A stretch of DNA of 64,000 nucleotides. Source: Isoetes taiwanensis. Taxonomy: Eukaryota; Streptophyta; Lycopodiopsida; Isoetales; Isoetaceae. The position numbers were made by a program, and so were the translations under genes. The notes beneath the pieces are model-generated. The model searched no databases. It was not told the origin of the DNA and was given only the letters and a program-made list of their open reading frames with translations. Shown in pieces: positions 1,021 through 55,833 of the stretch; the first letter of the stretch is position 1; every line of letters begins with the position of its first letter. The stretch lies in assembly GCA_021234155.1 (NCBI GenBank), contig JAJEKV010000095.1:186001-250000 (forward strand). The letters run 5' to 3'.

Positions 1021-1376
1021 ATGCAGCGTGCCGCTGTACTCTTCGTCCGGTTATCCGCTACAGACTCTGTGAGAGGAGATTTTTAGATTTTTCCTATCCG
1101 GTCTATATATTGTGTCCCTGAATGGTCTCTTATTTCAAAATGCACCGTTAATCCTAATTTTGAATTCGAATTTCGGAGTAGCCATTCTTTAATTGTTTTG
1201 CCCTCCCCTCCCCGCACTTATTATTTGTTCTGCCATGTGGGTTTCCTCGTATCACATCTTCTTCAATGATGAGTATCACATCTTCCTCGTATATTTCGGT
1301 ACTCCGCGAGGCAGTTGAGGCAGTTGGGGGTATTCTTGGAATATTCTGGTAGCATTTTTTAGTTAGTGGTCCGGAT

Positions 1377-1790
1377 ACCAGTTGGTGGGTTTAGCCCTCG
1401 CTATCCTGGTGTACGGCGGAGGTTGAACCTCTCGTCAAGTAACTTATTCCGTCAGCTTTATACTCTTTATAATCTCGCAATATGCGTTTTACACAATTTT
1501 TGCGATCTTTCGAGTTTATAGTGGTCCGGGTTTACCAGTTGGTGGGTCTAGCCCTCGCTATCCTGATGTACGGCAGAGGCTGAGCCTCTCTGTCCCGTAT
1601 CTTATTCCGTCCACCTTTTACTCTTATTTAGTCTTGCGACCCTTTGTGGTTTTTGATTTGGGTTTGCAGTAGTACAGTTTACCAGTTGGTGGGTCTGGCC
1701 CTTGCTATCCTGGTGTGCGGAGGAGGCTGGGCCTCTCGGTCCCACAGCTTTTCTGTCCACTTTTACCCTTAATCTTTCCATGTAGCTCCA
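1377..1790. repeat. Three tandem ~150-bp units behind the LINE
   Basis: The motif ACCAGTTGGTGGGT begins at 1377, 1534 and 1681, so the spacings are 157 and 147 bp. Each unit continues with GCCCT(C/T)GCTATCCTG and a small inverted repeat (GAGG...CCTC). The array lies 5' of the minus-strand LINE relic, where L1 elements of some lineages carry tandem promoter monomers. A chance or unrelated repeat is equally possible. Confidence 0.6.
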
Positions 1791-2379
1791 CTGCCCGCTC
1801 CTTTTGTTGTTTTCGTCGCGTGCATACCTTTTTACCTGTTTATCTGTCTACCTTTTGACTTTTCTCTTTCCCATTATCATGGGTTCGTCCCGGGTCCATC
1901 ACGTCCGCCACCTTTTGTACCCGTTGTGTCATAGCTTGTGTCCTTTTGTTACATCCTGTGACAATATCCTATGTTTTCTCATCTGTTTACCAATCTCTTA
2001 ACTGCCGTGCTTGCTATCACCTCTCTTGTTTTCATATAAATTCTATTACTGTTTAACTATCAAAACACAATGCTGAAAATCACAGCTTTCCCAGATTACA
2101 TTCCTTTGTTAATATAATTACAATGCAATCCTCCCATTTTCATGTCCAGGGGATGCGTTACAGAACTAATTAATGAGTCCATACCGTAAGATGAAATTTT
2201 GCAATATCATAACAGAGAATATGAAGGTGTGGAAAATTCTAGAACCAGATGATCAAAATTGGACTAGAGCATAAAACTAAGAGCAAAAGCAAAGCAAAAG
2301 AAAATTGAAAACACAACAAGAGCCCGTTGTTCTCCATCCGTCTCCGTCCTCTGCAGGTTGCCACCCGATGTTCTCTTCC
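1791..2379. other. Non-coding spacer
   Basis: AT-rich sequence between the tandem repeat and the Cys-rich reading frame. I see no conserved protein, RNA gene or transposon end here. Short open frames have no recognisable content. Confidence 0.4.
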
Positions 2380-2937
2380 TTACTTTGGTCTGCTAATTCT
2401 TCCCTTTTTTGCTGATGTTTCCCCGTCCTTTTTTATTTTCTCTGTGTTCCTGGCTACCAGGGCCCGACAGGTATACTCCAATGGGTTCTTTTCACAGCAG
2501 TTTACACAAATCTTCCCGAAGTCTCTTATTAACAAATCATGCTTATAGATATCCGATTTCTAGATTGACGCATGCATCTGCAGCACATGAAAACATTTCA
2601 TTACCCTTTCTTTGTCCCACCTTCTCACCGTATTGTTTCGATCGGCTAGAACACCGAAATATTCTAACAAATTCAGCTTGTATCCAAGATCCTTCATTGA
2701 TTGAGCGTGGTGGATCCTGTCACAGAACAGACAATGGACTCGGCCACAATTTAGGCATGAAGTAAGACCTTTTTCTAAACAAAGACAGTCTGCCTCACAG
2801 ATGCACCACGGCCCCTCATCCTCCAATTCGGAATTCCAAGGGACAGTGAGATTCCCTGGATTTTCTGTGCGGGTCTTCTTCTTTGCTGCCCGTTCTGGTT
2901 TATCATGCACCTCCAGCGCTCTCTTCCCCTTATCCAT
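2380..2937 (-). pseudogene. Cys-rich protein, one in-frame stop
   Basis: The ATG at 2937 sits in a good context (A at -3, G at +4), about 100 bp downstream of a TATA box. The first 125 codons give a basic, probably nuclear-targeted N-terminus (KGKRALEV...AAKKK). A dense cysteine block follows: C45, C47, C51, C53, C61, C64, C69, C72 and H76/H77, a likely zinc-binding module. The frame stops at TAG 2562-2560 but continues in the same frame for 59 more sense codons to TAA at 2382-2380. This extension contains another cysteine group (KICVNCCEKNPLEYTC) and a basic tail. The continuation looks coding, so I call a nonsense mutation; read-through or a spliced-out stop are alternatives. I do not recognise the family. 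It could be a mobile-element gene or a recently dead host gene. Confidence 0.5.
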
Positions 2938-3035
2938 CCTGCTTTGAGCGCACTGAGCGCAAGAAATTCCGTCTTCTTACGGGCGCTTCCTCTGTAAACT
3001 AAGTTAGAACCCTAAAACAGACAGAAGGTACCCGA

Positions 3036-3046
3036 CTATTTATATA
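3036..3046 (-). promoter_or_regulatory. TATA box of the Cys-rich frame
   Basis: On the minus strand this reads TATATAAATAG, a near-consensus plant TATA box. It lies about 100 bp upstream of the ATG at 2937, leaving room for a short 5' leader of about 70 nt. Confidence 0.45.
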
Positions 3047-3240
3047 CTGAATGATTTTTAGGGTTTTCGTCCGCCTTTCTCGCGTTTTCCTCATTACGCG
3101 ATTCTTACACCGCTGTCTTTATCATGTCGTATCCGAGAGCCGCTATCATTTATTCGTATCCGGTGCAGTTAATGAGACGTATTCACTGTCGATATTTTCT
3201 GCCAAATCGTACTCTGCCTTCTTTCGTAGGCCTGCAGATA

Positions 3241-13870: not shown

Positions 13871-16800
13871 ATGACGGAAGAACGAGAGAGAAGGCTTGCG
13901 GTCGAGCGAGAGAGGTACAGAAAGAAGCGTCATCACAGAGAACAACAATTAACGTGAAGTTCGATTGGAGAAACGAAGAGAGAATTACAAAAGAAGAAAG
14001 CAGCACAGCTTCAATAGAAACAAGACCAACATCGACAAAGATTAAGAAAACACTCAATATCGGTCGCCAATGGAGAGCCCCAACACTTGCCCGCGTAAAG
14101 CGTAAGAAGAGCATCAAGAGAGACTTGACGAACTTGCACAATATCATCGTCGTCCGGAGCCAGATCCATCTACATCTGAGAATAGCAAGGACACTTGAAA
14201 TCACACAAGTAGAACGACACCAGCGTGGGCCGCGTTCAATAGGGAATGCATATCGCGTGGTGCATTGTCGTTCAAAGACGATGGCACGAATGCTAACGTC
14301 ATGATGGACAAATCAACTGGAACCTCTACAACCAATGCCCCACCTAATTGGGAGATTATTGAGCCACCAAGACCCAAAAGCACTAACTTCCACCAACACA
14401 TTAGGACCTACAATAGTGCTCGCCTTTGCTTCCTTTGCCAACATCGAGCAGTTTGAAGGACCACGGACCGTATTGTTTCAAGATCCAAGGACAAACCTAC
14501 CATAGGGTAGGGCCCGACTCATCTTAGATAATTCCCGCCCCTTAACATACTCCGGCTCTACATTCTAGATGCCGACTATGCACATGAAGCCGAACCCAAA
14601 ATCCTCGGAATGCAAATTGCGATAGTGACCTACTCAAAGAGCGTATATGCGGAACTACGCGTAACCCCTATGCACGGCTCTCATGATGATGCACAGGTAG
14701 AAGAAGCGGGCACAACGTTGGTGAAGGCGTGATGACATCGGGGATGTACTTCAATGTTTCTCGAAACCTGGACCTTAGGAGATACAATTCAAGATGCTCA
14801 AATGAAGTTGCGGTAATATTTGTCAATGCGGGGCGGAGAGCCACCATTCGATAGGGACATCTGCATACATCAAAAGGGTGGCGGCCTCAAGAAGATTCCA
14901 ATCACAAACCCAAATCTTGATCCTTAGTTTACCCCATTTCTCTTTCCCTTTGGTGACCAAGAACGGACACGGGGAATCAAAAGCGGCGACTGCATCGGCG
15001 TCCTCTAACAAGCGAGAACCGCATTGACTATGTTTCAATTCTACAATTATCGGTGGCAATAAGGGAGGAGATTGGAACCCATTGCTTTGTCTTAGGGAAG
15101 CTAACACGGCAATTCATTGTTGATGTGTACTCAAAAGTGGAAACAAACAATCTAAAAGTGGATCAAACAAAATCAAAGGAAGTTGCAGTAGAGTTGTACC
15201 AAGGTCTCATTGACTACATAGATCCGCGGCGAGCAAAGAGGCTTAAGATCCCAAAATTTCGGTTATCCCGCCTTCTTCATACAATGGAAGCCCGAGAGCA
15301 ATGCAACGGGAACTACGAGGATTGATGGCCTTGATCCGAAGATTTGGCAAAGCTGATCTCTTTGTAACATTTACGTCCAACCCAAATTGGGTAGAGATTA
15401 GACACAACACCGCTACGGACAGCGGCCACATGATAGGCCGGATTTGGTTGTCTGGCGTATTTCACACAAAGCTCAAAGCATTCTTCCACGACCTCTTTGA
15501 AAATGATATCTTAGGCAAGGTGAAGGCACACATATACGATAGAGTTCGAAAGCGAGGCTTGCCACATTGCCACCTCCTCATGATTCTCGAACAAAGAAGA
15601 CAAAATCGAGATAGCGATGCCATTGACATCTGGCCAGTGCAGAGACCGAGAAAGCCGAACCTATCAAACCCATGGCCCATGCGGGGGACCCTCAACCCAA
15701 GCAGCTCCTTGCATACAAGCCAAGGAAGGCAATAGCGAAGGAATGCACAAAAGGATTTCCAAAACCATTTATTGACAATACCAAAGTCAGCGCCAAATGG
15801 CTATCCGAGTGAGAAGGCGGACCTGAGGCCACTTCATGAGGGGCAACCGCCCATTGACAACGGATGGATAGTTCCCCACAATCAATGGCTGCTTGAAAGT
15901 CTGAAGCACATATCAATGTTGAGCGGTGTTTCCATGGGCGTCGGTGGCGTGAAGTATATCTATAAGTACATCCACAAAGGCCGCGATCGGGCATCCATCA
16001 AGATCAGCGAAGAACCGGCGGGGAATCCACGTCCACATTCAATTGGGACGGTGGAGCAATACCTTGACACGAGATCGTCTACGCAATTGAAGCAATGTGG
16101 AGGCTATATGGATTCAAGATGCATGGCAACTCCCCACGATTACCACGGGCTACTGTTCACCTACCAAACAACCAAGGCACGTCTATTATCAAGAAGGCCA
16201 TGAAAGACAAGCCATCGGCGGCGGATGCAAAAAGCAAAGCGATGTTGATCGCATGGTTTGAACTCAACAAGGGCGACCCAGACGCGTGAATACACTTATC
16301 CGAAATCCCTCGGCACTATACATTCCGGCGGGCGTCCGGAAAAAGGGAGGGGAAGTTCAAGCTCATCACCACGGATGTACAACGTGAGCCCTAAGGACGG
16401 TGATATTACCTCCACCTCCTATTGCTACATATCAAAGGCAACTAGCTTTGAAGACATCGCGCACTGTTAATGGAAAACTATGTTCAACTTTCAAGGAAGT
16501 CGCCAAAGAGCTCGGCTTTTATTGGAAGACGATACCGAATGGGGAGTAATTTCGAAGGCGCAAGCGTCTTCCGGATGCCAATCCGCCTCGCCCGGACATT
16601 CGCATTCATTTGCCTATACAATGACCCACAAGATCCAATGCGGCTATGGGAGCTCTTCAAGGAGGACTGACGACGAAGACTACCAACGGAAGATGCCACA
16701 AGAGCGGGCTTATAACCACGCACGAAAGACATCGATGACATATTCCGGATGAGTGGTACGCACATGCCCGACAACTTGACTTTGAGAACCACGGATGGAC

Positions 16801-22721: not shown

Positions 22722-24643
22722 TCTTATATTATAATGTTATACCGTAAGTGTGTAGTGCATCGAGCCCTAATTTGAATGGCCGAGATCATCTGGATGCATC
22801 CGAAGGCCTAGATTTATTGCACGACTTATCAACACTGTGATTGGTCGTGCTTCGATCTCTTAAGGGGAAAGGGTAAATGAAAAGGGGGAAAAGGAAAAGA
22901 GAAGTGGAAAGAGAGAATATGAAGGGCAAAAAGGCATGGGGAAAAGGGAAAAGGGTAAAAGGAAAAGGGAAAAGGGTGGAGATAAGAGAAGAGAAAAAGA
23001 CATGGAAAACGAAAAAGGGAAAGGGAACCTAGGAAAAGGGCATGAGGGAAGGAGGAAGAGATAAAGTGGAAACGGTAAATGGAAGAATTTGTAAATTGAG
23101 GAAACCGGGTGGGAAAGGGCATAAAAAAAAAAAGGAAAGAGGAAAAGGTTGGAAAAAGGAGAAAATGAAGGAGAAAAAAAACATGGAAAAGGGGAGGAGA
23201 AAAAAAGCATGGGAAAAGGAAGGAGCATGGGAAAACGGGGAAAAAGAGAAGCGTTAAGGAAAGAGGAAAAAGGAAGGGACAAATGGCATAGGAAAAGGGA
23301 AAAAAAAAAGCGAGGGAAAGGGAAGGGAAAAAACGCATCAAGAAAAGGGGAAGAGTGAAAGGTTGAAAAAATGAGGAAAAGGGAAGGGACAAGGGGGAAC
23401 AAGAAAAGGATGGGGAGAGGGGAAAAGAAAAGGGGCATAGAAAAAGGGAAAGTGAGAAGAACGAAAAAGGAAAGGGAAAAGGGGAAAGGGAACCTAGGTA
23501 AAGGTCCACAAGGAAAAAGAAAGAGGGAAACGAGAAAAGGGAAGGGGGAAGGGCATGAGAAAAGGGAAGAGGAAAATGGTGAAGAAAGCGAAAAAAGAAA
23601 AAAGGGAAAAGAAAAGGGGCAAGAGAGAAAGGGTGGGGAAAAGAGAAAAAATGGGTATAGGAAATAAGAGAATAAAACAAATGTGCAAAAGGCATGGAAA
23701 AAGGGAAAAGGAAAAGAAAAGGAAGGGAAAAAGTGCACAGGAAAAGGATCGGCAAAGGAGGAAAACGGAAAGAAAAAATCCATCAAAAAAAGGAAAAGGG
23801 AAAGGAAAGGGAAGGGAGGCGGGGGAGTGATGGAGGGAGGAAAAAAAAAAAAGGATAAGGAAAGGAAAAGAGAAAAAGAAAAAAGAAGGGTTGAAAGAAG
23901 GAAAAATTTAGGGGGAAGAGGGAAAGGGTGGGAAAGCGGAGGAAAAGGAAGCCGCGGAAAAATAGAAAGAAGAAAACGGTGGGAAAAAGGGCATGGAAAA
24001 AGGAAAATAGAAAAGAAAAAAGAATGGAAAAGGGGGGAAAGAGAGAGAGGCACGGGAAAAATGAAATGAGGAAAATGGAAAAGGGGAAGAGAAAAACGAA
24101 ACATGGAAAAGGGAAAGAGAAAAAGGGTGAGGAGATGGAAAAAAGGAAGGTAAAAAGGGCATGGAAAACGGGAGGGAGAAAAGAAAAATGGAAAGGAAAG
24201 GGCACACAAAAAAGGAGGAAAATAGTGGAAAAAGGAGGAAAAGAAAAGGGAAAATAGGCATGGAAAAGGGCGAAAGAGTAAAAGGTTGAGAAAAAGGGAA
24301 GACATGGAAAAATGGTGGGGAAAAGAGAAGGCATAAAAAAGGGGAAGGGAAAAGGCCAAAGAAAAAAGAGAAGAGGGAAAAGGTGTAGAAAGGAGCAAAG
24401 GGAAGGGAAAAATATTATCGGGAACAAGGAAGGGGGAAGGAAAGGGATGGGAAAACAAAAAAACATGTGAGAAAGACGAGAAAAAAAAAAAGAAAAGAAA
24501 GAAAAAATAGAGAAAATAAGAAAAAATGAAATGGGGATAGAGCAAAAGGGAAAGGGAAAGGGATAGGGCTTTTCTCACTGCATCCCAAAGCATTTACAGG
24601 CTCTCAATTTATGCCCAGCAACGCTGGGCACCATATTTACTAG
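22722..24643 (+). mobile_element. Helitron C (1.9 kb) filled by a polypurine tract
   Basis: It starts TCTTATATTATAATGTTATA, preceded by A as expected for insertion between A and T. It ends with hairpin CCCAGCAACGCTGGG (24614-24628) and CACCATATTTACTAG (CTAG 24640-24643), followed by T. It begins two bases after Helitron B ends. There is no protein-coding content; almost the whole interior is the purine tract. Confidence 0.85.
22859..24575 (+). repeat. 1.7-kb polypurine (GGGAAA-like) tract
   Basis: The plus strand is almost entirely A and G, built from irregular (A)2-6(G)1-5 runs, with isolated CAT or T/C interruptions every 30-60 bases. Such mirror-rich homopurine DNA can form triplex structures in vitro. 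The very long open frames on both strands (Lys/Glu/Gly-rich on plus, Phe/Pro/Ser/Leu-rich on minus) follow simply from the lack of TAA/TAG/TGA in skewed sequence and are not genes. Confidence 0.95.
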
Positions 24644-26361: not shown

Positions 26362-26369
26362 TTACTTAA
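26362..26369. other. Left target-site duplication of the TIR element
   Basis: TTACTTAA lies directly outside the left inverted repeat; TTACTTTA lies directly outside the right one at 37784-37791. Seven of eight bases match. Confidence 0.6.
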
Positions 26370-26392
26370 CAAGATTGCGTATTAAACGGGAG
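26370..26392 (+). repeat. Left terminal inverted repeat
   Basis: It begins CAAGATTGC and ends AAACGGGAG. Mismatches to the right repeat are at positions 3, 10 and 11. A second AAACG(A)GAG copy follows at about 26402-26410. Confidence 0.75.
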
Positions 26393-26879
26393 CAAATCAT
26401 TGAAACGAGAGCAAAAGGAATATTCCTCAAAGATTCCCTTTTTTTTTACAAAAAGGGGGTAAAATGAGGTTAAAAAAAAAAAAGATGCATGAAATTCTAT
26501 TTTGACCCCCCCCCCCAAATGACTAATTTTTTTTTGCAACGAAAGAATTGACTTTTTTAAAGTGTCACTTTTCTTAGCAAATAGAATGTTCTTCAAGTAT
26601 GTTTAAAGAGAGAAACTCTAATTTCGGAGGATAAAATATTTAACAAAAAATTGAAGTAAGTCCAGAATCGAGGCTTGATACCTTTTCATCTCCGAAGGGT
26701 ATGTCCGGTATGGTGACTGCGTTGGCGGGGGTTAAGCCGTTTTGCTAAGGTCTTTGGTAGGCGTGTCGGCGGCAGCAGAGCGGCGAGGAGTTGCATAGTC
26801 TTTATCGAGTTGAGAAGATTCGCGCTGACCTTCGATGGCATTAGGGGAGAATGCAAAGGTTGCAGTATTGTTGCTTTGG

Positions 26880-29790
26880 AGCAGATTAAAGTGCATGAGG
26901 CTGCGTGTGAAGGCAGCCCCACCTGGTTGAAGGAGGGGGATACAAGTTAAATTGTTCTTCTTGAGCGGCTAGGGCGGGCGATATCAAAGCATCTATGGCG
27001 CCCCTTGCTTTGCTCGATGGCCGGACTTTGGAGGATCCCGGCCGAGTTGCAGAGGTATGTGCATGCTCATTTCTCGGGTTTTTTTCGCAAACAAGACTCT
27101 TCCCTATGAGCGAGGGGAGATCACGGGAGCTTGTTTTGGGGGCTGTTAAGCCATCTATTTTGCCTCACCAATGTGAGAGCTTGGAGCAGGAGCTCTCCAG
27201 AGAGGATTTAGCGGAGGCATGTATGTGCATGGCCAAGGATAAATGTCCTGGGCTGGATGGCATCCCTGTGGGAGTTCTTTGGACTTATTGGGAGTGGGCT
27301 GGTGAGTCCGCGGTACGTGTGTATCTTGAGTTCTTTGCAGTCTTCTCACATGGATAGGATCTTGAATACCGCATGCATTTCCTTGATTCCTAAGGTTAGC
27401 GACCTTCTACTATTAATGATTGGAGGCCTATATCCTTGTTGTCCTCTGTGTACAAGATTATTGCGAAAGCCCTCGCCGAGAAGTTGAAGCCGGTGTTGAC
27501 TTCTTCCATTAGTAAGGTGCAGTCTGGGTTTGTTCCTGGGAGGAACATTTTGACTAATGTTGCCGCAGCTTATGAGGGCCTTTATTGGGCCAGGAGAACA
27601 GTCAAAGCATTGCCTATCTTAAAGCTTGACTTTGCCAAAGCTTATGATAGTGTCCGTTGGGGAGTTCTTGTCCGCCATGATGTTAGCGTTGGGGCTGGGT
27701 CCACGCTTTTCGTGAGACGATCATGAAGCTGCATAGGTCAAAGACGGGCTACGGTGGTGTGCCAGGGTGAACCCTCCGCCTTTTTCTCCTTAGGCAGAGG
27801 GGTGCGTCAGGGGTGCCCTTTGGCACCATTTTGTTTCGATTGTGGCGGAGGCAACCGTCTCGCCTTGTTTTTGGGCTGCAGTGGAGGAGGGGGTGGTGGA
27901 TGGGCTTTGGATGCGGGATGGTAGTCGCCAGATTATTAACCGGATTCGCCGATGACACTTTTCTCTTCTTGGTGGCGTAAGAGAGGAATTTTGCTAAATG
28001 TGAAGGGTTTCTTTGGATACTTTCTCCTTGGCCTCGGGCATTCTTCGAATTGGGGTAAATGTCTCGCATTATGGGCCCGATTGACTCGCCTCCCCCTTGT
28101 TTGGCTCTATTCCCTTGGAAGGTGCTTCCGGGTAATGTGTGTACTAAGTGTTGGGTATTCCCTTTGGAGGGATGTTTCCATGGGGAGGGTGTGGGATGAG
28201 ATTTTGCGGGGGGTTGCGTAAAACACCTCAATTGGTGGAAGGGTAGCAAGTTGTCCATGGCGGGTAGGATCACTATTGTCAAGTCAATGACTTTGTAGCA
28301 CTCATGTGTATACAAAGATCTGCGATGTTAGCTCCCTCGAGGGTAAGATACGGGCTTTGGATAAGATTGTTCAAATTTTGTGGGGGGGGGATGATGAAGG
28401 GGCGGTTGTTAAAGTGGCTTGGTAGAAGTGTCTCCGCCCCGGGAGGATGGGGGGCTTGGCCATTCTGGATTTGGCACCGCATAGTAAGGTGTTGGTCTCT
28501 AAGTTTATTTGGAGCATTCCCCCGGGATGGAGCATCTTCTCACGGTGCGGCACTATTGTGGCAATCTCTTCGCCATTGTGTGGCATTTGGAAAGTCGATG
28601 CGTGCATGTAGAGTTGCCCCGGCACTATTGTATGGTCTCCGCCTTTCCCACATGCGCCCCTTTTCTCCACGGGGGTGTTAGGGCTTGGGATCACGTATGC
28701 GTGTGCTCTTCCGACTAGATTATGCCTCAGTTTATCACCACTCTTCTCCTTTCTTGTGGGTTCCTCTACCTCCTAGCGACTTGCCCCTTGGCTGCCATCG
28801 CGGCATGCTCTGACGCAGGGGCGCTGGAGGCGAAGGAAACTCAGGCTCACCTTGGAGGATTGGTATTGGGATGGTCAGCTAGCCGTGGGAGTTCTTTTCG
28901 AGCTCGCCGCGAAGGACAGTGGACAAGGGCTATTCGGGAACAAGTGGAAGGGAGTATTCCGCTACATATACCTATAGTCCTTCGTGGTGATGTGGTGGTG
29001 CAGTTTGGAAGGTTCATCCGGATGTTGTATCTTCTTGTTTTGTGCGGTCTTGTTACCCGGTGTTGGCTATTCATGACACTCTGCCCCTCTCGGGCAAGTG
29101 GTCTCCGCAGCCTTCCAGGGTTCTCCGATGGCGCTTCGGTTTGGGCGTGGACATGGAGCTCACTTCCCCACCGGAAGGTTCGGGTGCTTATGTGGCGGTG
29201 GTGCACCGCATTTGTCTGTGGTGAATGTCCTTGTGAGTCGGGTTTAGGGCCGGTGTGAGCCCTCTTTGCCCCTTGTTGTGGTCTTCATCGTGAGAGGCGT
29301 GGAGCATTGTCTGGTTTTATGCCCTCATTTGCGGGTTGCTGGGATTGGGTCGGGGGCCTGTTTCGTGAGATTGAATAGCCAACAATTCTTTGCTTCATGT
29401 GTATCCCGGTGTTTGGCCACTTTCGTATGGCGGCAAGCCTTGCATCCGTGGCGTGGCTTGGTTGGTGTGGTTGATTTGGAAGCGGCGGCGGTTGTGGATC
29501 TTTCGGGGGATTCAAGACTGCGGCCTCTCCGATTCCTCGACTCGGTACAAGCTATTTCAAAGCTTTTTTGGTGTTCCGGGATTAGTAGGCGGAAGTTTTC
29601 CATTTGGCGGGACTTCTTGGGTGTGGTAGATGGTGATGGTCGGTTTGTACAAAGATGGAGTTGCGCTTGTTGTGGAGTGTCGAGGTATCACTGTCTCTTT
29701 GGGGCGTTCTCCTTCCTCCTCACTTGCTTTGTAACATTACCATTCTTTTAATATATATTGAATACGAGTTCTTCAAAAAAAAATTTGAAG
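26880..29790 (+). pseudogene. L1-type LINE ORF2 (reverse transcriptase), decayed
   Basis: Family blocks appear in order with frameshifts between them: the pre-RT linker WLKEG (about 26920); KDKCPGLDGIPVGVL (27230-27275); LSSVYKIIAKALAEKLKP, QSGFVPGRNI and KLDFAKAYDSVRW (27436-27660, one open frame); RGVRQGCPLAP (27797-27830); the catalytic FADD in LTGFADDTFLFLVA (27934-27975); and the C-terminal zf-RVT region (about 29155-29360: LPHRKVRVLMWR, then Cys residues, then EHCLVLCPHLR). The 3' end is TTGAATACGAGTTCTTC plus a run of nine A (29775-29783). The 5' end is truncated; no endonuclease or ORF1 is seen. It lies inside the TIR element, so it inserted later. TTGAAG occurs just outside both ends (about 26653 and 29786), a weak candidate target duplication. 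Confidence 0.9.
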
Positions 29791-29904
29791 ATAGAATCTT
29801 CATATTCACATGCAAAATTCACGGTTTTTTCTAAGACTCGATTATGTGCAAAAGTGTGAGGAGTGATGAGAGAGGGATCCGGGACGTCTTCATATTCATT
29901 TATG

Positions 29905-32900
29905 CCATCGTCATCACCTTCACTTCTTTCATGTCATCCGAGGAAGTGCTCGAGTTATCTTCCTCATCACTATCAACAGACGGTGAAGCATTGTCACCAC
30001 CTTCTTCATCATCTTCTTCGTAATTACAAGCTTTTTTAAGCAAATTGATAGTCTTCTGGCGTAGACGATTGTCAGATTTCAATTTAAAATCATAGCACAA
30101 AATAGTCACGTCATTAAGGTTCAGCTCGTCCCTACAACCCACCTTCTTGGACTTTCTCCCTTTTCCTTGACTTCTCATTTCTAACTCATATCTACCTTCA
30201 AAAGCATTTTTACGGCGTGTTGCAAGCCAATGAATCTTGAGTTTAGTGACTAAGCCTTCCTCCTTGATTTATGTCAAGCACTTTTGCTATCGAGCAACGG
30301 TCGACCTTTGTCATCCTCCTCGTCCCGGAAGAGCAATTAGCATACCTTTGGTAATTTACGTGATATTACCTTGAGGCTCATTCTGCGTCTTGGTCCGAGG
30401 TACATGACTCGGTCCTCCTCGTCTTCTCTACTACTCGCAGGTGCAAATGTAGCATTTGCTTGGACTGCTTGGTCTTTGGGGTTGATGGAAGGTGTTAGGC
30501 CATTGAAATGGTTCTTGCAACTGTCTTAGAGCTATATGTTGTACAACAATTTTCTGTTCGAGAAAGAAATTACTCCACCACATCCGATCTTCTTCTAAGA
30601 AGTACTTAAAGCCTGAGGAAATTCCATTTTCAATGGCTTTTAAGGATGACTCGGGGTACTGTACCTTGGACTCCTTAGGATTTTTGAGAGGAAGTTGTTC
30701 AAAGACGCTCTATGAAGGAAGTGTCGGAATATATTTAAGGAAGCGTAATCCCTCCGGTGGACTCCAGTCCTTAGTTGTGGTATACTTCTTCCCTGAAGAA
30801 GCTTTGGCCATCCTTCAAGTAGAACTTGATATGATCTTTGAAAGGTGAGATCATTCAACTTGTTCGCTGACTTGTTCTCTGTTTGAGCGTTGAGAGAAAA
30901 CAAACTCTCTAAAATCAGCGGTCTCTTTAAGAAGATCGACCTTTGGAGTAGGAGTGTAAGAATCTTCAATAATTGAACTAAAGAAGGAAGACGTAAAAGC
31001 CTTCTTCCTTCTAAGTATACGTAAAATCTCTTTGAACATTTGGTCAATCGATCATGAGTGTGGCCTACAAGTAAGAAACCGAAGCTTCACTTTTCTAAAG
31101 ATCCCTAGCTCCACTAACATGGCATGATGACGCTAAAGAGTGTTTGATTCTTGTTCTCCCTTGTAGTATTGTCAAGTTTGCAGATAAAGCACCGGGTGGT
31201 AATTGCTCTTGCTTTCATACGGGACCTTGTTAAGAATTGTAATTGTGAGGTTCGGGTCACCATGCAAGTTTGGATACGTCAAAAATACTTTGCACTTTAG
31301 ACTTCCTTTGAAGACCATAGCTCCTACAAGGTGGACCTTAACAAAACATTCCTCTCGCACATCCTTAGGAATGTTCAAGAAATGTGGTAGAGTTGTTTTT
31401 TTGGTCCATTCCATCAATCACAAATGAGACATGTATTGCGATTGGGCGTTCAAGAGCTTTTTTTCTATGCTTGGCAAGCTTTCTTCTCTCTGCTGCTTGT
31501 TGTTCACGATGTCTGGCAAGGTTCTGTTGCACAATATCTGTAGAAGAAATCAGGTCAAAACATTTTCTCAGAAACAAGTGAGAGATTGGAGAACATGAGC
31601 TTACTTCTTTCGACCTCTGTCTTTGCAGTTTCTCGTTGACTCTTTAATTCTGCACACCTCGAGCAAAACGGACATTCTATGTTTTCTAGGAATTTTCACA
31701 AGACCCGAATTCACTTTTCCCGGTCCCGGTGAAGTGTGAGTAAGAGATGTCTTTGAAGCGGAGTGCAAATCTCTTTGTACTCATTAAAAACATCTTTTTG
31801 GTGATGTTATCAGTTAAATGATACATGTTCTTTGTTAGGTAGCTTCTCACATGTTTCTCTAAAATATTTCTCCATCCATGACACAACAAAGAAGGGCATG
31901 CATGGTTACAACTCTTCTTGGTCCACAATGATCATCGATTGCTGGATTTTTGTCGATCTTTTGTGTATTCTAGACATTACGGTGGACCCTAAGCGGTGGA
32001 CAACCATAAAGCATTTTCGGCAAACTTCTTGGCGGTTAATGTAGTGCAAGAAGGTGTTGCGGTCTGGTCTTACATGATAAGCTAAGTAGGCATGCAGTGC
32101 GCCAATGTCATGGAACTGTAGTTGTCTCTAGCGCTTTCGTAATTTAGCCATATTAAATCTGTTGATGCAACCCAATGAGCAGCATTTAGTTCTCAAAAGT
32201 CTCCTCATTTTGTGTTCATACATAAGATTTCTTCTTCTTTAGGAGGAGCAGCCCTCAAACCAAAATCCACCTTGAATTTCTTTGAAGATTGGCTTGAGAA
32301 CATGTAATCTCTTTGTTCCTCGTTGGTGTCTTCATCTTTGATGAAACTTCTACTGGGGGGGTGACTTCCTCTGTCTCCGAGTGGTGTGCTTGTAGAGGAA
32401 AAGCAGACCACGTGAAGTTGTTCCGGAATAGGCGGGGTGCAGGTGTTAAAGGATGGTGATGGCCCATAAGAGGTTGTGGCATCATTTGTTCTTGTACCAT
32501 CTTGAAAAGGAGTTCTTGCAAACATCTCCTTTAGGCCCGGACTGGAATTACGCAAATCCATGTGTCACAACCGTTGTTGTGTGAAGAGGAGTGCATCTTT
32601 GGGCGTCGTCCTCATTTGTAGTGAAGTCTGGTGAGAGAAATTGTAGTGAATCTCCACGGTCTTACGTGTTTTCTACGTGTTCCTTGTATGTTTGCAACGA
32701 AGGGGCGAAACTACAAAAGGGGGTAGCTTGTTCTTGAGCACCCTTTGTTGTGGAGCTTCAGAGGTCGGGGATGGAACAAAGGGTGGTGGCAACCCTCTCC
32801 GAACTGGTGGTGATTCTTTGGAAGGAGATGCGGTGTCTTTGTCTACGAGGACTTGGTGACGGTTGGAAGGGTGGTGGAAGTGGTTGTTATGTCTTTGGAC

Positions 32901-33080
32901 TCGGTGTGTCTTGAGAAGCAACAACGATGAAGCAGGTAGGAGGAGTCGGAGAATGCCGGTCTTCACTAGAAATAGCGTTGTTCCCAAAGCGTGTCCTCGG
33001 GGAGCAGGCGAGCTTGAGACAACAAAAGGTGGTGGAAGCTTGTTTCACGGCGGTTCGTCATCTTGACAAGCGCAAAATAG
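29905..33080 (-). pseudogene. DUF7869-type transposon protein, decayed
   Basis: Read right to left. The N-terminal half (33080-32200) is Pro/Ser/His-rich and low-similarity (VRRGLPPPFVPSPTSEAP). A block NTFLHYINRQEVCRKCFMVV (about 32060-32000) resembles the conserved VCR.xF segment of the family. Then come HREQQAAERRKLAKHRKKA; VSFVIDGMDQK (about 31397-31430); KVHLVGAMVFKGSLK, VFLTYPNLHGDPNLTITIL and PVLYLQ (31172-31345); VELGIFRKVK with a frameshifted HTHD-type motif (about 31115-31050); and DQMFKEILRI (31045-31010). The order VIDGMDQ - DPN/YLQ - HTHxxIDQ is what I recall for DUF7869 proteins of non-seed plants and cnidarians, thought to be transposon-derived with an RNase H-like core. The C-terminus is acidic (29900-30178, EEDDEEGGDNASPSVDSDEE). 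Numerous frameshifts and stops. Confidence 0.7.
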
Positions 33081-33890
33081 TAAAGAGATTTGAGAAACTT
33101 TACGTAATGCAGAGCTTTTCTTATTCGAATACTGCGCCCGCGTAGTACAAGTAGAAGTTCGGTACTAATCAAGTGAAAGTCAAAATAAAAGCTATTACGG
33201 AATACACAAGAGTAGGATAGTAAAAGCTAAGCGTATTAGGATCACATAGAAAAAGAGCAAGGCGAAAATGATACCTTTAAAAGGAAATTTGGTAGCCTTC
33301 GGTTCGCGTATTCAGTCCGAGCTCAAGTGGCCCGGTGCCGGCCGCCGATTATTATATTCTGTATTCGATTCACATAGAAACCATGGACGGGTCGGTGAGA
33401 AAGTACAACGTACAATCATTTGCATGTCTGTTTCTTATGAAGAATACCTTTGGCCTTCGGGAGTAACCTAAAAGTGTATTCCAATACTTTACCGCCCAGT
33501 GGAAGCGAAGTGTGTCCGAATACACTTTAAGCCCTCCACTTTCGAAAGTGTGTTCGAATACACTTTTTTCAAAGTGAAACGAAGTGTCATTCGGACAATA
33601 GTGTGAACCCCAACCGGTGAACTCTCCGGCTCCCGGCTTCGATCGAAGAAAGTGTATTCGAATACTTCCGTGTTTTAGGTTTTAGGGGTTACTTTTCCTT
33701 TTTTTTTAGTTAATTTAGGCGTTCTTGCTGCATTTTTAGCTTGTTTAGACCACTTTTTTGTCAAGATTGCAGTGCTTTTTGGCATTTTTGTCCTCTTTTT
33801 GCCCTCTTTTTTTCCCTTTTTGTAAGCCATTTTATATTGGAATAGTTCTTTGCCTTTTTTTTTCTAACAAGGTCGTGTTTACACAATTTG
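33081..33890. promoter_or_regulatory. Divergent intergenic region with palindromes
   Basis: The two element genes point away from here. Palindromic units related to AAGTGTATTCGAATACACTT lie at about 33118-33135, 33470-33490, 33508-33527, 33545-33568 and 33648-33667, and a half-unit at about 33188. The right half is T-rich with polypyrimidine runs. I infer a shared promoter or protein-binding region. Confidence 0.55.
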
Positions 33891-33897
33891 CCTGAAC

Positions 33898-35273
33898 ATG
33901 GCGGCAGCAGAAAGAGCGAGAAGAAGCCCCAAAAAATCTCACGAAACCGCACCCCACGAGAAGGGTTGAGGAGTCGGATCGCTTTGCTATCTCTGAAAAC
34001 TTCCAAACTCAATGGTTTTACAAGGGGTACTTACGGAAAGTCAAACACCCGACTTTTCTACATGTCTGCCGGAACCACGGAACCAAAGGTCACGATGGCG
34101 GGGAATTTGTGCGCATGGGCACCATCCGTCCGTGAGTGAGGTAGTAGGTGGCCCCGGTAAGGGAGGGAGATTGTCTTTTCGGACATCTCAAGGCTTTATT
34201 CATGTTGATGAATCCTACCTTAGAGTTGTGAAGGTAAATCCACATCCTCTTTATAAAGTATGTTTCTCACTACGAACAAGAGGTGGCTCTCGCCATCATT
34301 AATTACGTTCGGGAAATAACGGCGAGGACTTCCCCCCTGGCCGAGTCGGAGAACAAGGGAAGAGGAAGATCGAGGGAATTTATCGGGGAGTCCATCACGG
34401 TCTGCGAGCCCATCCGAAGTGAGTTCATCGAGGTTCGGGAAGAGCAGCCACCTCCACCACCACCCAAAAAGCGAGGCAAACCGTAGGCTGCTAAAAGAGC
34501 CTAAGAAAAAAAGCGGCTATCATTGAAGCAGAAGATGCTCTCGAGGAGAATGCACACAAGAAGAAGAAGGGGAAAGGCAAAGCACACGGCGTTGCCATCA
34601 AAAAAAAAAGTTGATAAAGCAATGAGAGAAAATGGAAGAGATAAACCTGCACAAATTTGTGCAAGGTGTCATTTATTTGCCGGTCACATCTATGAAGCTT
34701 CCTCCAAAAATGAAGCTGGAGAAGCGACCGCTGCGGGTTCGAAAGATATATCTGAGACCATCTAAGGAACCTCAAGGACGAGAATCCGGAACAATCCCAA
34801 TGCACATGTAGCTCAATTGTTGTTCTTGTTGATAGAAAGCGATGCACAACTCTGCAGAGTACGATAGAAAAAATGCGGACACATATATCGCATTATGTTT
34901 TGGGTGGGAACCCGGCTTTAAGGCAAGGAGGCAATTATACAAGGAAAAAAAGAATCCTAGGTACTTATGCGTTCTCAAATCTTCGTCTCGTGGTTTGACC
35001 AAACGAGGAAGCCAAAATCGTTGCCAACACTCACAATGCCGACAACGAGTACAAGTTAAAATGAGCTTTGTCGACAAAATCAGATTCATGCACAGAGAAT
35101 ATGTTATCTTCAAGGAAAAGTATGGAGAGGATCTCAAAAAGCCCACGATACTCCCTTGAACTTAAAGAAGCTTGTGCCATTGAGTGTTGCCTTAAATCTG
35201 ACGAGGCGAACAAGCGGGCATCACTCATTGGTCATGACAATTGGTTTCATCTAGCGTTCGGGGATGGCGGGTA
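33898..35273 (+). pseudogene. Broken frames upstream of the methyltransferase
   Basis: ATG 33898 opens MAAAERARRSPKKSHE; after a frameshift near 33966 it continues SDRFAISENFQTQWFYKGYL and HVCRNHGTKGHDGGEFVRMG, which look coding. Further pieces are VGGPGKGGRLSFRTSQGFIH (34150-34210), HYEQEVALAIINYVREITAR ending in a Pro run (34268-34485), a basic piece with a CARCHLFAGH motif (34655-34685), and FVDKIRFMHREYVIFKEKYG (35065-35125). All are on the plus strand in changing frames. I do not recognise a family. They may be the N-terminal exons of the methyltransferase gene or a third gene of the element. Confidence 0.45.
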
Positions 35274-35571
35274 AGGTTACAAAGCGTATTCGAGAATAAG
35301 ATTTAGTGTGCAACTAGCTTCTAAGTTTTTAATTTGTTTGCGGTAGATCGGGAGCTTGAGCGAAATATTTAATATGTTTGGAGCGGTGAGCTAAAAAGTA
35401 AGGAAAGGTGTGGGAGAAGAAAGAAAGCGGCGTCCCAAAGAAAGAAATGACCATCAGCATGCGGAGGGAGATGCGGGGGTTCACCGACCGCGAATTACTA
35501 GAACGACTTACGCAAAAGGTGGTGGACAAAGGAGTTCACACTTTCGAAGAAATGTCGAAGGAGTTGCACAA

Positions 35572-35991
35572 GTAAGCATACAATCATTGCTGCCTTTTCA
35601 CTTGTAGAATTACTGTCGGATAATGACAATCTAGTGCTCACGGAAATGCTTTCTCACCCTCGAGGGAGCGAAAGTGTATTCCGAATACGTTCTCTCTTCT
35701 TGTAGTGTAAAAGTGTATTCGAATACACTTTTACTCCTTTGAGTCGCTTAAAGCGTGATACGGAATACACACTCTAACTTGTTGCGTTGTAGAAGTGTAT
35801 TCCGAATACACTTTTTGCTTCTTCTTTTTGCGAGTTAAAGTGTATTCTGGAATACACTTCTGCAACAAGAAAAATATTGATTACAGCGCTTGTATTCTAG
35901 AATAACTTTAGGTGGCAGGAAGATAGTTTACTTCGCGTTTTCTCTTTTCAACTGCTAAAAAGGTTGTGTTTTTCTTTCTAGCCAAAAAAAT
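35572..35991 (+). other. Intron of the methyltransferase gene with palindromes
   Basis: Donor GTAAGC at 35572 and acceptor TTTCTTTCTAG ending at 35991. The intron holds at least six palindromic GTATTCNGAATAC-type units: about 35670-35689, 35707-35734 (a perfect 28-bp palindrome), 35752-35775, 35791-35816, 35836-35863 and 35889-35909. Confidence 0.6.
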
Positions 35992-36626
35992 GTTATCACC
36001 TGCCAGACATGTCTGATGGAGCAACTCAGCGTGGAGGCGTGGGAGAGGTGCAAGGAGCTTTATCCCATAGCTACATCCGGCTGGCGTATGCTTGATGCGC
36101 ACCAAATTTTGAAGGATGGGTACGCTGACTAAACACGTCATACTTTACTTGTCTCTGTCTCAATCTCCCCTTTGTTTGCAGAACAAGAAGAAAAATAAGG
36201 ACCTGCCAGAAGGTTTCATGCACCTCGTCAGACTGGCACGAGAAGAAAGAACACTGGCAGAGAGGAGAACTCTAGATGTGGAGCCTTCTGATTATGAAAA
36301 GTTTAATTTATTTGACCAAAATAATTTGTTTTCCATCATTTCGGAATTTGCACTAATTTGGTTGGGACGATAAAAGCCACAAGATTTCCTGCTTTGGTGA
36401 TTGCGGACCTTCCTTATGGCTTTAAACTAAAGGGACACCGTTCTGACGACCAGCCTTTTAAATTTTTAGAGTTTAACGCTTTCGTCGACGGCATCAAACA
36501 AGTCACAACGGCCAAGCACTGGCGTCTTGTCGTGTTTCACTCGAGCATGCAATCTGGCCTTGTGGAGTCCACGTTAAAAAACTCGCCGGATCCCCGGTGC
36601 AAATTTGGTTATGAGAATTTGGTTTG

Positions 36627-36745
36627 GTGAGTACTTTATTCGGAATACGTTGGGCTTGTTTCTTCTTTTTGTTTTAGTTTTCTATTCGAATATAATTGCC
36701 TTTGACTTGTTCTCTTTGTTTGTTTCTTGTTACGTTTTTCGTTAG
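36627..36745 (+). other. 119-bp intron of the methyltransferase gene
   Basis: Donor GTGAGT after ...GAGAATTTGGTTTG and acceptor TTTTTCGTTAG. It joins ...YENLVC with DTTLISLV in frame. Two more palindrome relatives (TATTCGGAATACG at about 36639 and TATTCGAATAT at about 36683) lie inside. Confidence 0.6.
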
Positions 36746-37760
36746 TGACACCACTCTAATTTCTCTGGTACAAAACAAATATAAACTACCACCATGGTGG
36801 GCGAGATTCTTTGAGTAAGGTTGAATACCTCCATGTTGCTTCTTGGAGTTTCGATGGAAAAGCGCACCATGGAGCATTTTAACCACAATGACATGCCGAA
36901 TTTTTCTAATGTGTTGGAATTTCCATTTGTGCTTCAAAAGCTCTGAGGACCCTAGTGCACAAGGTAGAATTGTTAATCACTACCCGAAGCCTCAAAGCTA
37001 ATCAACCATCTCCTAGACATGTTTTCCGTCCGGAGATTGGGTGCTTGATGCCTTCTCGGCTCACGGTACAACAATAGCTTGTGCACTTAGGAAGGGCCGG
37101 AATTGTGTAGCAGTGGACATTGATAAAGAAGCTGTGCAATTCATCAAGATGAGACTGGCAGCCTTGCCTACCCTACCAGATGAGCACCAAGAGTTAGGGG
37201 CTAAATCCTCATCCGATTTTGCCAAGCTGACCTCTTCTGAGATCAGCCTCCATTCACTAGCTCTTTAAAGGATGAAGCTACTTTTGCAGCTGAAAGAAGT
37301 GGCACTAGCTACCATTCCTGAAGACACTACAAAAGTAGACAAGGGTAAGGCACAAAAAAAGGATCAGACTGTAGAATCTGGCACAGCAGAATCAAGCAAA
37401 AAGCATGATGAAGACTTGATTTGGACCTTTAGTGCGTCTTTTTCAAAAACATTATCTCGACCACCATGTGATGTTACAAATTGTATCATTGAAACACTCT
37501 TCATTATATAATAATTATTTTATTCACTACATTCTGGTGTTTTCAAGATAGTACTTTTTGAGAATACAAAAGCATGTCTAAATTCTTCCCTTTTCAAGTG
37601 TTGGTTTTGGCAAATTCCAAGTTATTTTACACTAGGGGGCCAAAAAAGAGGTAAAAAAAAATTAAGCCTATTGGAATTCCCAATTAGAAGGAAAAAAGTG
37701 TCATTTTCTAGATCAGGCTGTTTTTTTCAAGGGAATCTTTGAAACGGGAGTGCTGCAACA

Positions 37761-37783
37761 CTCCCGTTTAATTTGCAATCGTG
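37761..37783 (-). repeat. Right terminal inverted repeat
   Basis: It reads CACGATTGC...AAACGGGAG on the minus strand. The inner GGGAG forms a further short hairpin with 37742-37750 (AAACGGGAG...CTCCCGTTT). Confidence 0.75.
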
Positions 37784-37791
37784 TTACTTTA
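37784..37791. other. Right target-site duplication of the TIR element
   Basis: TTACTTTA, matching TTACTTAA at 26362-26369 in seven of eight bases. Confidence 0.6.
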
Positions 37792-52767: not shown

Positions 52768-53020
52768 TTTGGAATAATGGAATGATGTTTAAAAAAGAGA
52801 CCAACCATGGTACAATCTGGCAAACCATGCATGCTTTTACAAGAATGGATGAGTATTTATAATTATAAATTGCCTTCGATTTTAAATATATTATTGTATT
52901 GCTTACCACTACAAATGGCATAGTGGATAAATCACAAAAACATACAACTTGATATATGCCAATTCGATTAACAAGCACTAAACAATACATCTATTTCTCT
53001 CAAAATGGCAATGGTTTATA
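52768..53020. other. Spacer between Helitron ends E3 and F
   Basis: 253 bp of AT-rich sequence between a CTAG 3' end and the TC 5' end of the next Helitron. Nothing recognised. Confidence 0.4.
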
Positions 53021-54760
53021 TCTTTATATAATAAAAATATAGCGTGTGTCTTCCATGGAGACCTAAATCCAATGGTTGAGGATTTGATCGACCAACGGTG
53101 AAGATGACATGTGCACGACTTCAACTAAGATTAACTCAATCCGACAGTCAAGGGGTGAAATGGGAAAGGGAAAAGGAAAAAGAAAGGGAAAATGGAGAAA
53201 AAAGGAAAAGGGAGGGGAAAAGGACAAAAGGAAAGGGAGAAAGAAACAAAAAAAAAAGGAAATGGGAAAATAAAATAAAAAAGGAAAAAAGGCAGAATAG
53301 AAAAAAAAGGGGAAAAGGGAGAAAAAGAACAAAAAATGAAGTAGAAAGGGAAAGGGGAGGAGAAAATTATAAAGGGAGGCAAAAGGGCGAAGAAGAAGGA
53401 AGACAAAAGAGATTGAAGGAAAAGGGAAGGAAAAAAGGAGAAAATAAGAAAAAAAAGTGGAGAAAAAGGGAAAAGAAAAAGTAGAAGGCAAAATAAGCAG
53501 AAGGAAAAGGGGAAGACAAAAGGGCGAAGGAAAAGGAAGAAAAAAAAGAAGAAAAGAAAAAATGGAGAAAGGGTTGGGAAAAAGAAAAGGTTAAAAAAGA
53601 AAGGGAAAGAAAAAGGAAAGGCCAAAGGGGAAATGGAAGTGAAAAAAGGGGAGAAGAAAAGTTAGGAGAGGATAGAAAAGGGCCATTGGGAAAGGAAAAG
53701 GGAAAAGGGAAGCCAAAAAGGAAGGGAAGAAGGGAAAAGGAAAAAGGAAAGGTGAAAAAGGGGAAAATAAAAAAAAGAAGAAGCGGGAAAAATGGGGAGG
53801 AGAAAAATGAAAAAATTGAAGGGGAAAAAAAAAGGAGAAAGAGCGAAAAAGGAAAAAGGAGAAAAAAATAAGTAGAAAAGGAAGGGGGAGAAAATGATAA
53901 AGGGAGACAAAAGGGCCAAAGGAAAAAGGGAAAGGAAAAAGGAGAAATGAGAAAAAAGTGGAGAAAAAGGGGAAGAAAAAAAGGGGAAGGCAAAAAATAG
54001 GAAGGAAAGGGAAAGACAAAGGGCCAAAAGGAAAAGGGAAGACAAAAGGGCGAAGGAAAAGGAAAAAGAAAGGGGAAGGAAAAAAAAAAAAGAGAAGGAA
54101 AAAAAAGGTGGAGAAAGGGGTTGGGAAAAGGGCTTAGGAAAAGAAAGGGGAAAGAAAGAAAAAGGGGCCAAAGGGAGGGAAATGGAAGGGAAAAAAGGGG
54201 AAAGAAAGGATTGGGAGGAGGAAAAAGGGCCATTGAGAAAGGAAAAGCAAAGGAAGGAAAGGGAAGGAGGAAAAGGAAAAAAAGGAAGGTGAAAAGAAGG
54301 AGGAAATAAAAAAAAAAAAAAGCGGGGAAAAATAGGAAGGCGAGAAAATGTAGAAAAATTGAAGAAGGAAAAAAGAAAAGGAGAATTGGCAAGCGAAAAG
54401 GGAAAAGCAGAAAAAGGGGGGGAAAAGGGAAAACACAACGAAAAAAGAAAAAGTAAAAGGACAAAATGGAAATGGGGAGAAAAGGAAAGGAAAAACAGAA
54501 AGGGAAAAAAAGAGTGAAAAAGAACAGCGGAAGAAATGGGATAGTGGAAAAAAGGTAAATAGAAAATAGAAAAAAAAAGGAAAAAGGGGGAAAAATGGAA
54601 AGTAGAAAAAGGCAAAAGGGGAAAAGGGGAAAAACTTGGGAACCTTTGGGAAATCGTGGAATGCCTTAATTGTACAATCTTAAAAATGTGAGTTCATTTA
54701 ACAATCGGCCCAATGTATCATTGTTCTAGCTATGCCAAAGAACGCCGGTCTCCATTCTAG
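53021..54760 (+). mobile_element. Helitron F (1.7 kb) filled by a polypurine tract
   Basis: It starts TCTTTATATAATAAAAATAT after an A and carries a subterminal GACCTAAATCCAATGG similar to the family's CTAATTTGAACGG. It ends with a worn hairpin (GCCAAAGAACGCCGGTC, about 54733-54750) and CCATTCTAG (CTAG 54757-54760). Its architecture matches Helitron C: a short unique 5' part, a long purine tract and a short 3' part. Confidence 0.7.
53155..54640 (+). repeat. 1.5-kb polypurine (GGAAAA-like) tract
   Basis: The plus strand is nearly pure A/G, with scattered C in AAAGGC(A/C)AAA-type interruptions (for example GGCAAAAGGGCGAAGG, GGCCAAAGGG). It resembles the tract in Helitron C, but the interruption motifs differ (CATGG there, GGCC/GGGCGAAGG here). 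The long Phe/Pro/Ser-rich minus-strand frames are by-products. Confidence 0.95.
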
Positions 54761-55833
54761 TAAATAAATAAGCTTTGGTTTTGTGAACAATTTATTGTTG
54801 GTTTCCACGCCATTATCTTTGCCTTTATGATAAAACCAATATGAGGTAGAGATAAACCTAAGTTATTTTTAATTTGTACATCTAAACTAAAATTGATATG
54901 TAATATAAAACATCATTGGTTTGCTTGAACACGGGATATTTTAAAAAGATGGAATGCCATTATCTATATTTTGATAGAAAACATACATTATCTTTGGTAA
55001 TAAACTTGAATACTTATCACATAAGGCAACAATTGCTCATATGAAAAGACATTGATGAGTTCATACAACAACTACTGTGTGAGTGCATAATACTTCAAGC
55101 TAAAGCCACTAGTAGTTTACAAATAGAATATGTCTTAGTTTTTTTACTAAGTTGATACCAAATGTTAATTCAAAGCATAATTGGCTTACCTCATCCATAA
55201 AATACTTTGAAGATGCAAAACCACCACGGTATTGAGAGATAACCTGTTAATCGTTTTAATAAAGAACTTAAAGCCTTTATTCTATGCAAACACTGGTGGT
55301 TTACAAATGGAATATCTCGCAATTTTCTTACTAAGCTAAATTCGAAACATAATTGGCTTATCCCCAACACAAAATATTTTGAAGATTCAAAGCCACCACT
55401 ATGTTGAGACATAAAGTGTTACTTGTTTTCATAAGAAACTTGACGCCTTTATTCGATGCAACATCAATGATTCATGCAACAAGATATTAATGAGATGATT
55501 CAGAGACCACTATGAGTTGCCCAATTCTTTAAAATTAAAAACACTAGTGGTTTACAACCTATACTATTATTTGAGCCACATATCACCTGGCCACAAAACA
55601 TAGCAATAAACCAAGAGAATTGACCACCCTAAGGAACCATAGTAAACAAGGTGCTACGCACGGAGGGTTGCCCTCTGTGCCCCGAGGGTGAAGTGGCTTA
55701 AATCATAATTCAAAGTCATGTTTTCACAATCAATTAAAATTGCTACAATACGTGATGCTTGATTCTTGTTTTCAACCAGAATTTCTTCCTTTATCCCTAA
55801 AATATTATTTTAGTACAAACAAACTTACCCAAA
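54761..55833. other. AT-rich spacer with a repeated segment
   Basis: CAAAGCATAATTGGCTTA(C/T)C-like text followed by AAAATA(C/T)TTTGAAGAT occurs at about 55171 and 55348, suggesting an old ~175-bp duplication. The candidate minus-strand exon there (about 55191-55412) has no recognised family. Confidence 0.4.

Follow-up and report, generated by a model that had tools for sequence, protein, structure and literature searches.

The stretch of Isoetes taiwanensis DNA analyzed here (64,000 bp, contig JAJEKV010000095.1, positions 186,001 to 250,000; G000:C1106:186001-250000 in our genome search; hereafter the window) contains a degraded copy of a DNA transposon that is abundant in the genome, has imperfect terminal inverted repeats (TIRs) starting with AACA and is about 8.2 kb long without a nested long interspersed nuclear element (LINE). 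The transposon pairs a gene for a DUF7869 protein, most likely its transposase, with a divergently oriented gene for a DNA methyltransferase that is under purifying selection, and it carries recurring arrays of short palindromes. We consider it likely that this is a two-gene element in which a DUF7869 transposase is accompanied by a selected methyltransferase that marks the transposon DNA via the palindrome arrays, the mark gating either a promoter or excision.

An initial annotation of the window had proposed inverted ends flanked by an 8-bp repeat (seven of eight bases identical). Taken alone the match of the ends is not decisive: 25 of 2000 dinucleotide shuffles equal it under loose scoring, and under such scoring inverted matches better than the element ends exist elsewhere in the window. 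These figures would suit the view that two unrelated elements lie side by side with ends matched by chance, but elsewhere in the genome the ends again come in pairs, with duplications and with the two genes together, and it is these copies that decide the reality of the window element; the recurrent pairing detailed below (19 end pairs, 30 of 30 right-end loci, six of six sampled pairs and 22 divergent neighbours) leads us to reject that view, whose chance of being right is practically negligible. A search of the genome (1,658,258,908 bases in 1,110 pieces) returned 1,354 left-end and 1,335 right-end first-look candidates, counts that are loose, and 40 of each, the window's own ends included, were scored (99-100% identity for the left end, 98-100% for the right). 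The scored ends form 19 same-strand pairs within 20 kb, the window among them, compared to an expectation of 0.01; 17 of these pairs are spaced 8,232-8,463 bp apart, the window pair 11,418 bp and one further pair 14,949 bp.

Because other copies share sequence up to AACAAG (26368) on the left and GTGTT (37785) on the right and then diverge, we set the termini there, and at 28 of 30 right-end loci the exact core is present, the shared sequence stops after GTGTT and the flanks differ (the other two carry one mismatch). The initial annotation was thus right about the inverted ends but had drawn their limits two bases too far in at each side. In the window copy the inverted arms measure 26 bp (26367-26392 and 37761-37786) and are 88% complementary. 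The AA/TT that had been counted into the 8-bp flanking repeat belongs to the element, and the true target duplication is the 4-bp ACTT. Among the 18 non-window pairs, the four flanking bases are identical in all 18 and five or more in none (5-10 bp compared). Eight further copies (L069-L076) were fetched for the closeness of a scored DUF7869 hit to a scored methyltransferase hit; the fetched stretch includes both ends in four, the left end only in two and the right end only in two. Exact 4-bp duplications flank the four with both ends, which are 8,046-8,288 bp long, as well as the window copy, bringing the total to 23 of the 23 copies in which both ends were read. A KDZ-type element (Kyakuja, Dileera, Zisupton), the comparison drawn initially, would carry duplications of 8 bp (Zisupton and Dileera) or 7 bp (Kyakuja) (PMC12730594; this and the other articles cited by PMC number are represented here by parts of their text). 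Eight-base duplications would account for the seven matching bases beside the ends as first drawn, but with a 4-bp match in 18 of 18 pairs and none over 5-10 bp the comparison falls and such an element is highly improbable, a rejection that concerns duplication length alone.

Copies of the window's subfamily (L009-L038) are a median of 94% alike (89-98%; 28 of 30 loci compared). At most of these loci the methyltransferase is split into several pieces, which looks like the spread of a non-autonomous subfamily.

The plan of the element can be read from copies with longer open frames: the DUF7869 gene reads toward the left end, and the divergent, multi-exon methyltransferase gene reads toward the right end. 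The window copy follows this plan in decayed form, with a DUF7869 (PF25273) match on the minus strand, a methyltransferase (PF01555) match on the plus strand, stops in both frames and a LINE inserted, which bears out the two divergent decayed genes of the initial annotation. Both methyltransferase exons are present at 30 of 30 right-end loci (of the 40 scored; the window is one). Conversely, in a set of 30 methyltransferase loci the right end matches at 22 or more of 27 positions in 22 loci, at 20-21 in five and at 16 in three. DUF7869 lies at the expected position in all six end pairs sampled from 18 eligible ones, picked blind to the content there. When 150 methyltransferase and 150 DUF7869 hits were scored, 24 of the former had one of the latter no more than 15 kb away (0.41 expected), and these neighbours are divergent in 22 cases, convergent in one and tandem in one; since only 150 of 9,902 DUF7869 and 150 of 1,443 PF01555 candidates were scored, the 24 are a lower bound. 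A single TIR element carries both genes, as had been proposed: the ends do pair and the genes do not turn up in unrelated settings, the reverse of the two outcomes that the initial annotation had named as speaking against it. Neither a methyltransferase nor palindromes are seen at the eight best-scoring DUF7869 loci (L001-L008), but these are uninformative as to DUF7869 elements lacking the methyltransferase, because their flanks reach only 1.5 kb on each side and both features would lie farther off. The 9,902 first-look DUF7869 candidates exceed the roughly 1,350 for each element end, which may point to additional lineages of DUF7869 transposons whose ends differ.

DUF7869 is the sole Pfam family above cut-off in its gene, and the N-terminal regions of both proteins match no Pfam family above cut-off. 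Across 16 aligned DUF7869 frames (A1), IDG(M/I)D is present in all 14 covering rows and LQLDN in all 16, and the aspartates of GHTHDQID are each kept in 15 of 16 rows. We infer that these conserved aspartates represent an RNase H-type transposase triad; in agreement with the initial proposal, they argue together with position, copy number and selection that the DUF7869 protein is most probably a DDD transposase of the RNase H type. No paper naming DUF7869 was found in the literature searched, and this Pfam domain of unknown function becomes a candidate transposase family by its constant position within an element whose ends are inverted and whose target duplications are exact.

The methyltransferase gene, intact in other copies, matches PF01555 with an E-value of 5.3e-18 in L072. 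The exon encoding ADLPYG precedes that encoding DAFSGSGTT, the permuted order of a beta-class amino-methyltransferase, and the motifs are largely kept in two alignments (A3 and A4). The closest named solved structures are CcrM, MboIIA and RsrI, and the closest NCBIfam model is CcrM, below its cut-off. The PF01555 domain has repeatedly evolved specificity for N6-methyladenine (6mA) or N4-methylcytosine (4mC) (PMC8885841). We regard the enzyme as most likely a beta-class amino-methyltransferase specific for adenine, within a protein predicted to consist of an N-terminal domain, then a ParB-like region (a feature absent from the initial annotation) and then the permuted methyltransferase. Searches with the methyltransferase gave 43 loci in viral contigs (28-58% identical across portions of the query) and 86 matches in phage records, all below 60% identity and none covering 80% of the query. 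No relatives of DUF7869 were found in viral contigs, and none of the ParB-like part in viral contigs, genome contigs or plasmids; a PDB search with that part returned nothing relevant. A viral origin was rejected, DUF7869 being without viral relatives and the methyltransferase having ordinary phage-type relatives with no source among them.

The transposon carries the methyltransferase as a selected component, one under purifying selection. The ratio of non-synonymous to synonymous substitution rates (dN/dS) has a median of 0.078 in one methyltransferase exon (105 of 120 pairs usable; range 0.021-1.666), 0.082 in another (26 of 78 pairs; 0.028-0.375) and 0.188 in the ParB-like exon (7 of 36 pairs; 0.040-0.581); for the DUF7869 exon it is 0.183 among methyltransferase-carrying copies (21 of 21 pairs; 0.101-0.393) and 0.174 over 15 copies (37 of 105 pairs). 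The low values suggest that the ancestors of present copies needed the methyltransferase. An idle passenger, once captured and since carried along, would be compatible with the stops in the methyltransferase frame of many scored copies, the window's included, and with the broken-up enzyme at most right-end loci of the window's subfamily, which means that copies spread without it intact in cis; with a median dN/dS of about 0.08, motifs largely kept and the enzyme present at 30 of 30 right-end loci, we nevertheless consider this unlikely.

The palindrome-rich centre of the element noted initially is confirmed, and further palindromes, missing from that description, lie inside the methyltransferase gene. 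The window copy has five palindromes, and none occurs elsewhere in the window outside the centre and the methyltransferase gene. The motif GTATTC(0-2)GAATAC occurs 65 times in L069-L076, in eight of eight copies and in two clusters, one between the genes and one inside the methyltransferase gene, and palindromes are found at 27 of the 30 methyltransferase loci. The exact 22-mer AAGTGTATTCCGGAATACACTT has 1,810 occurrences in the genome and its reversed control 0. Among the palindrome spacings below 200 bp, 36 of 46 measure 41-43 bp, about four helical turns, a regularity of about 42 bp that had likewise gone unmentioned. The palindrome centres are CCGG in 41 of 65 cases and CTGG or CCAG in 21, the latter being the change expected if a central CpG is methylated and decaying. 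Between palindromes the five copies compared differ in sequence, so it is apparently the palindromes that are conserved.

In the reading we favour, the DUF7869 protein would cut both ends and join them to a 4-bp staggered cut, and the methyltransferase, steered by its upstream regions, would methylate element DNA at or near the palindrome arrays; the mark might then gate promoter activity or restrict excision to half-methylated copies that have just been replicated. The model for mark-timed excision of this kind is bacterial Tn10 with Dam. A bacterial-style form of self-recognition, in which a ParB-like adenine methyltransferase loads on parS-like arrays and marks its own element, the mark licenses or times excision, and modules are exchanged among subfamilies as they are in bacterial restriction-modification loci, is a tentative idea that we think possible but doubtful.

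Several points weigh against the reading of the methyltransferase as a selected, array-directed partner of a DUF7869 transposase. All copies analyzed come from one genome, and a sequence search of the PDB found no solved relative of DUF7869. The matches of the ParB-like region are weak (TIGR03764, E 5.8e-4, far below its curated cut-off; phrog_1033, E 7.6e-4; DUF6551, E 0.0078), and an hhalign profile comparison of this region with phage ParB-methylase proteins gave a probability of 1.4%. The dN/dS values, calculated by the Nei-Gojobori method, derive from sequences chosen for open frames, which lowers them somewhat; pairs with saturated or zero silent divergence were dropped without separating the two, usable pairs are few for some exons, and single pairs reach 1.67. 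Transitions at CG and CHG are raised in the copies, which suggests host cytosine methylation and makes a simple escape from it unlikely, so that such an escape is not favoured as the purpose of the enzyme. Lastly, the trees of the transposase and methyltransferase blocks conflict, and these blocks are therefore not strictly co-inherited.

In L009-L038, transversions are raised at CG and CHG too (0.046 and 0.040, versus 0.007 at CHH); five DUF7869 loci (L003 and L005-L008) show no comparable transversion excess.

Modules have been swapped among the copies, a further feature that the initial annotation lacked. Any two of the eight fetched copies agree at 85-100% in the transposase core (five intervals from ~750 to 3,200), whereas a block at ~3.2-4.8 kb comes in two classes and the ParB-methyltransferase block sorts the copies in another way. 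The conflict between the trees is strongly supported: that of the DUF7869 N-terminal block places L070, L074 and L075 together (support 100), and that of the methyltransferase block joins L072 with L074 (100) and L071-L074 with one another (100). The simple reading is that recombination between subfamilies swaps modules. A comparable case in the literature is that of the chimeric Sola2-Fanzor elements, which have one constant transposase half and one exchanged half carrying Fanzor (PMC3627910).

The succession of a ParB region and a permuted methylase is found in bacterial and phage fusions of ParB with an adenine methylase, such as B. cereus Bce_0392 (PMC5512222), and, as read from its translation, in the IMG/VR contig L087, but the contig and plasmid searches and the profile comparison above gave no close relative of the present protein. 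Nonspecific nicking activity is described for Bce_0392 (PMC5512222), and the same order of parts here would accommodate a restriction-modification-like arrangement in which the ParB-like region nicks unmarked DNA while the element is shielded by the methyltransferase, the pair working as an addiction or self/non-self module; given the weak ParB assignment and the risk to host chromosomes, we find this quite unlikely. Among eukaryotes, the bdelloid N4CMT is likewise a bacterial-type PF01555 enzyme and a Marchantia 4mC enzyme is also of bacterial origin, but both are described as host enzymes (PMC8885841), whereas the enzyme reported here lies inside a mobile element in at least 150 scored copies. 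N4CMT deposits 4mC at transposons for silencing (PMC8885841), and by analogy the present enzyme could place a chromatin-directed mark on element or host DNA that changes host silencing or transcription. N4CMT, however, is a host gene with a chromodomain, and here no chromodomain exceeds cut-off (one MSL3_chromo-like match, E 0.12), which makes a chromatin-directed mark very unlikely.

The element is a TIR transposon that is Sola-like in its duplication and probable triad and carries an enzyme pair that appears unreported. Sola elements (Sola1-3) have a 4-bp target duplication, a DDD-type transposase, TIRs and lengths of 2-9 kb, and are reported from the moss Physcomitrella (PMC10741241); the likeness, drawn from descriptions and without the Sola transposase sequence, consists of duplication length and probable triad only, and no methyltransferase was met in the Sola elements described in the portions of text available. 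One known transposon combines transposase and methyltransferase genes, but its transposase is Mariner, its methyltransferases are Methyltransf_26 and C5, and it has an endonuclease in addition (PMC3627910). KDZ and other TET/JBP transposons of fungi also carry a DNA-modifying enzyme, but TET/JBP oxidises 5-methylcytosine, in contrast to the amino-methyltransferase here, and the KDZ duplications are 7 or 8 bp rather than 4 bp (PMC12730594). The literature compared included partial accounts of plant transposons (PMC9033089) and bivalve transposons (PMC10294476). At the level of titles and abstract openings, no description of a DUF7869 transposon or of a PF01555 enzyme in a plant transposon was found, and an earlier one in subscription papers or Repbase is possible. 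A plant transposon with a strongly selected amino-methyltransferase offers a direct route to two questions, that of a role for 6mA or 4mC in plant DNA and that of self-marking by eukaryotic mobile elements, with the palindrome arrays and natural chimeras as test material. It also raises the question of why a transposon should require DNA marking.

The features of the window copy are collected in the table. The nested LINE accounts for ~3.1 kb of the 11,418 bp, and its reverse transcriptase matches RVT_1 with an E-value of 2.4e-15.

Table. Features of the decayed transposon copy (window coordinates; SAM, S-adenosylmethionine).
Feature	Position	Strand	Details
Left 4-bp target duplication ACTT	26364..26367	.	
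Whole transposon copy	26368..37785	.	11,418 bp including nested LINE; basis: end pairing and length
Left terminal inverted repeat	26368..26392	+	
Nested LINE fragment	26670..29779 (approximate limits)	+	Reverse transcriptase 27400-27726; break points from alignment to copy L069
DUF7869 (probable transposase) gene remains, part aligned to copy L069	29780..32639	-	89% DNA identity to L069
DUF7869 domain match, interrupted frame	30863..31363	-	PF25273, E 7.7e-24
Palindrome between the two genes (GTATTCGAATAC)	33654..33665	.	
ParB-like region remains of methyltransferase gene	34542..35275	+	Alignment to L069; weak ParB matches in other copies
Second palindrome cluster, inside methyltransferase gene	35676..35855	.	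At 35676, 35715, 35797 and 35842
Methyltransferase exon region with catalytic motif ADLPYG (36403-36420)	35976..36636	+	Alignment to L069; translation
Methyltransferase exon region with altered SAM-binding motif (37047-37073)	36767..37328	+	PF01555 (N6_N4_Mtase) match 37002-37148, E 1e-6, frame with stops
Right terminal inverted repeat	37761..37785	-	
Right 4-bp target duplication ACTT	37786..37789	.	

Just inside the right end, at 37742-37769, lies an inverted repeat (AAACGGGAGTG and CACTCCCGTTT, separated by a 6-base loop); no similar repeat was noticed at the left end in the window. Elsewhere in the window, a Helitron_like_N match on the plus strand (15062-15229, E 0.0034), weak and below cut-off, is perhaps a Helitron remnant, and strand-biased purine tracts occupy 23001-24000 and 53001-55000, with GC skew up to 0.755 and AT skew up to 0.781.

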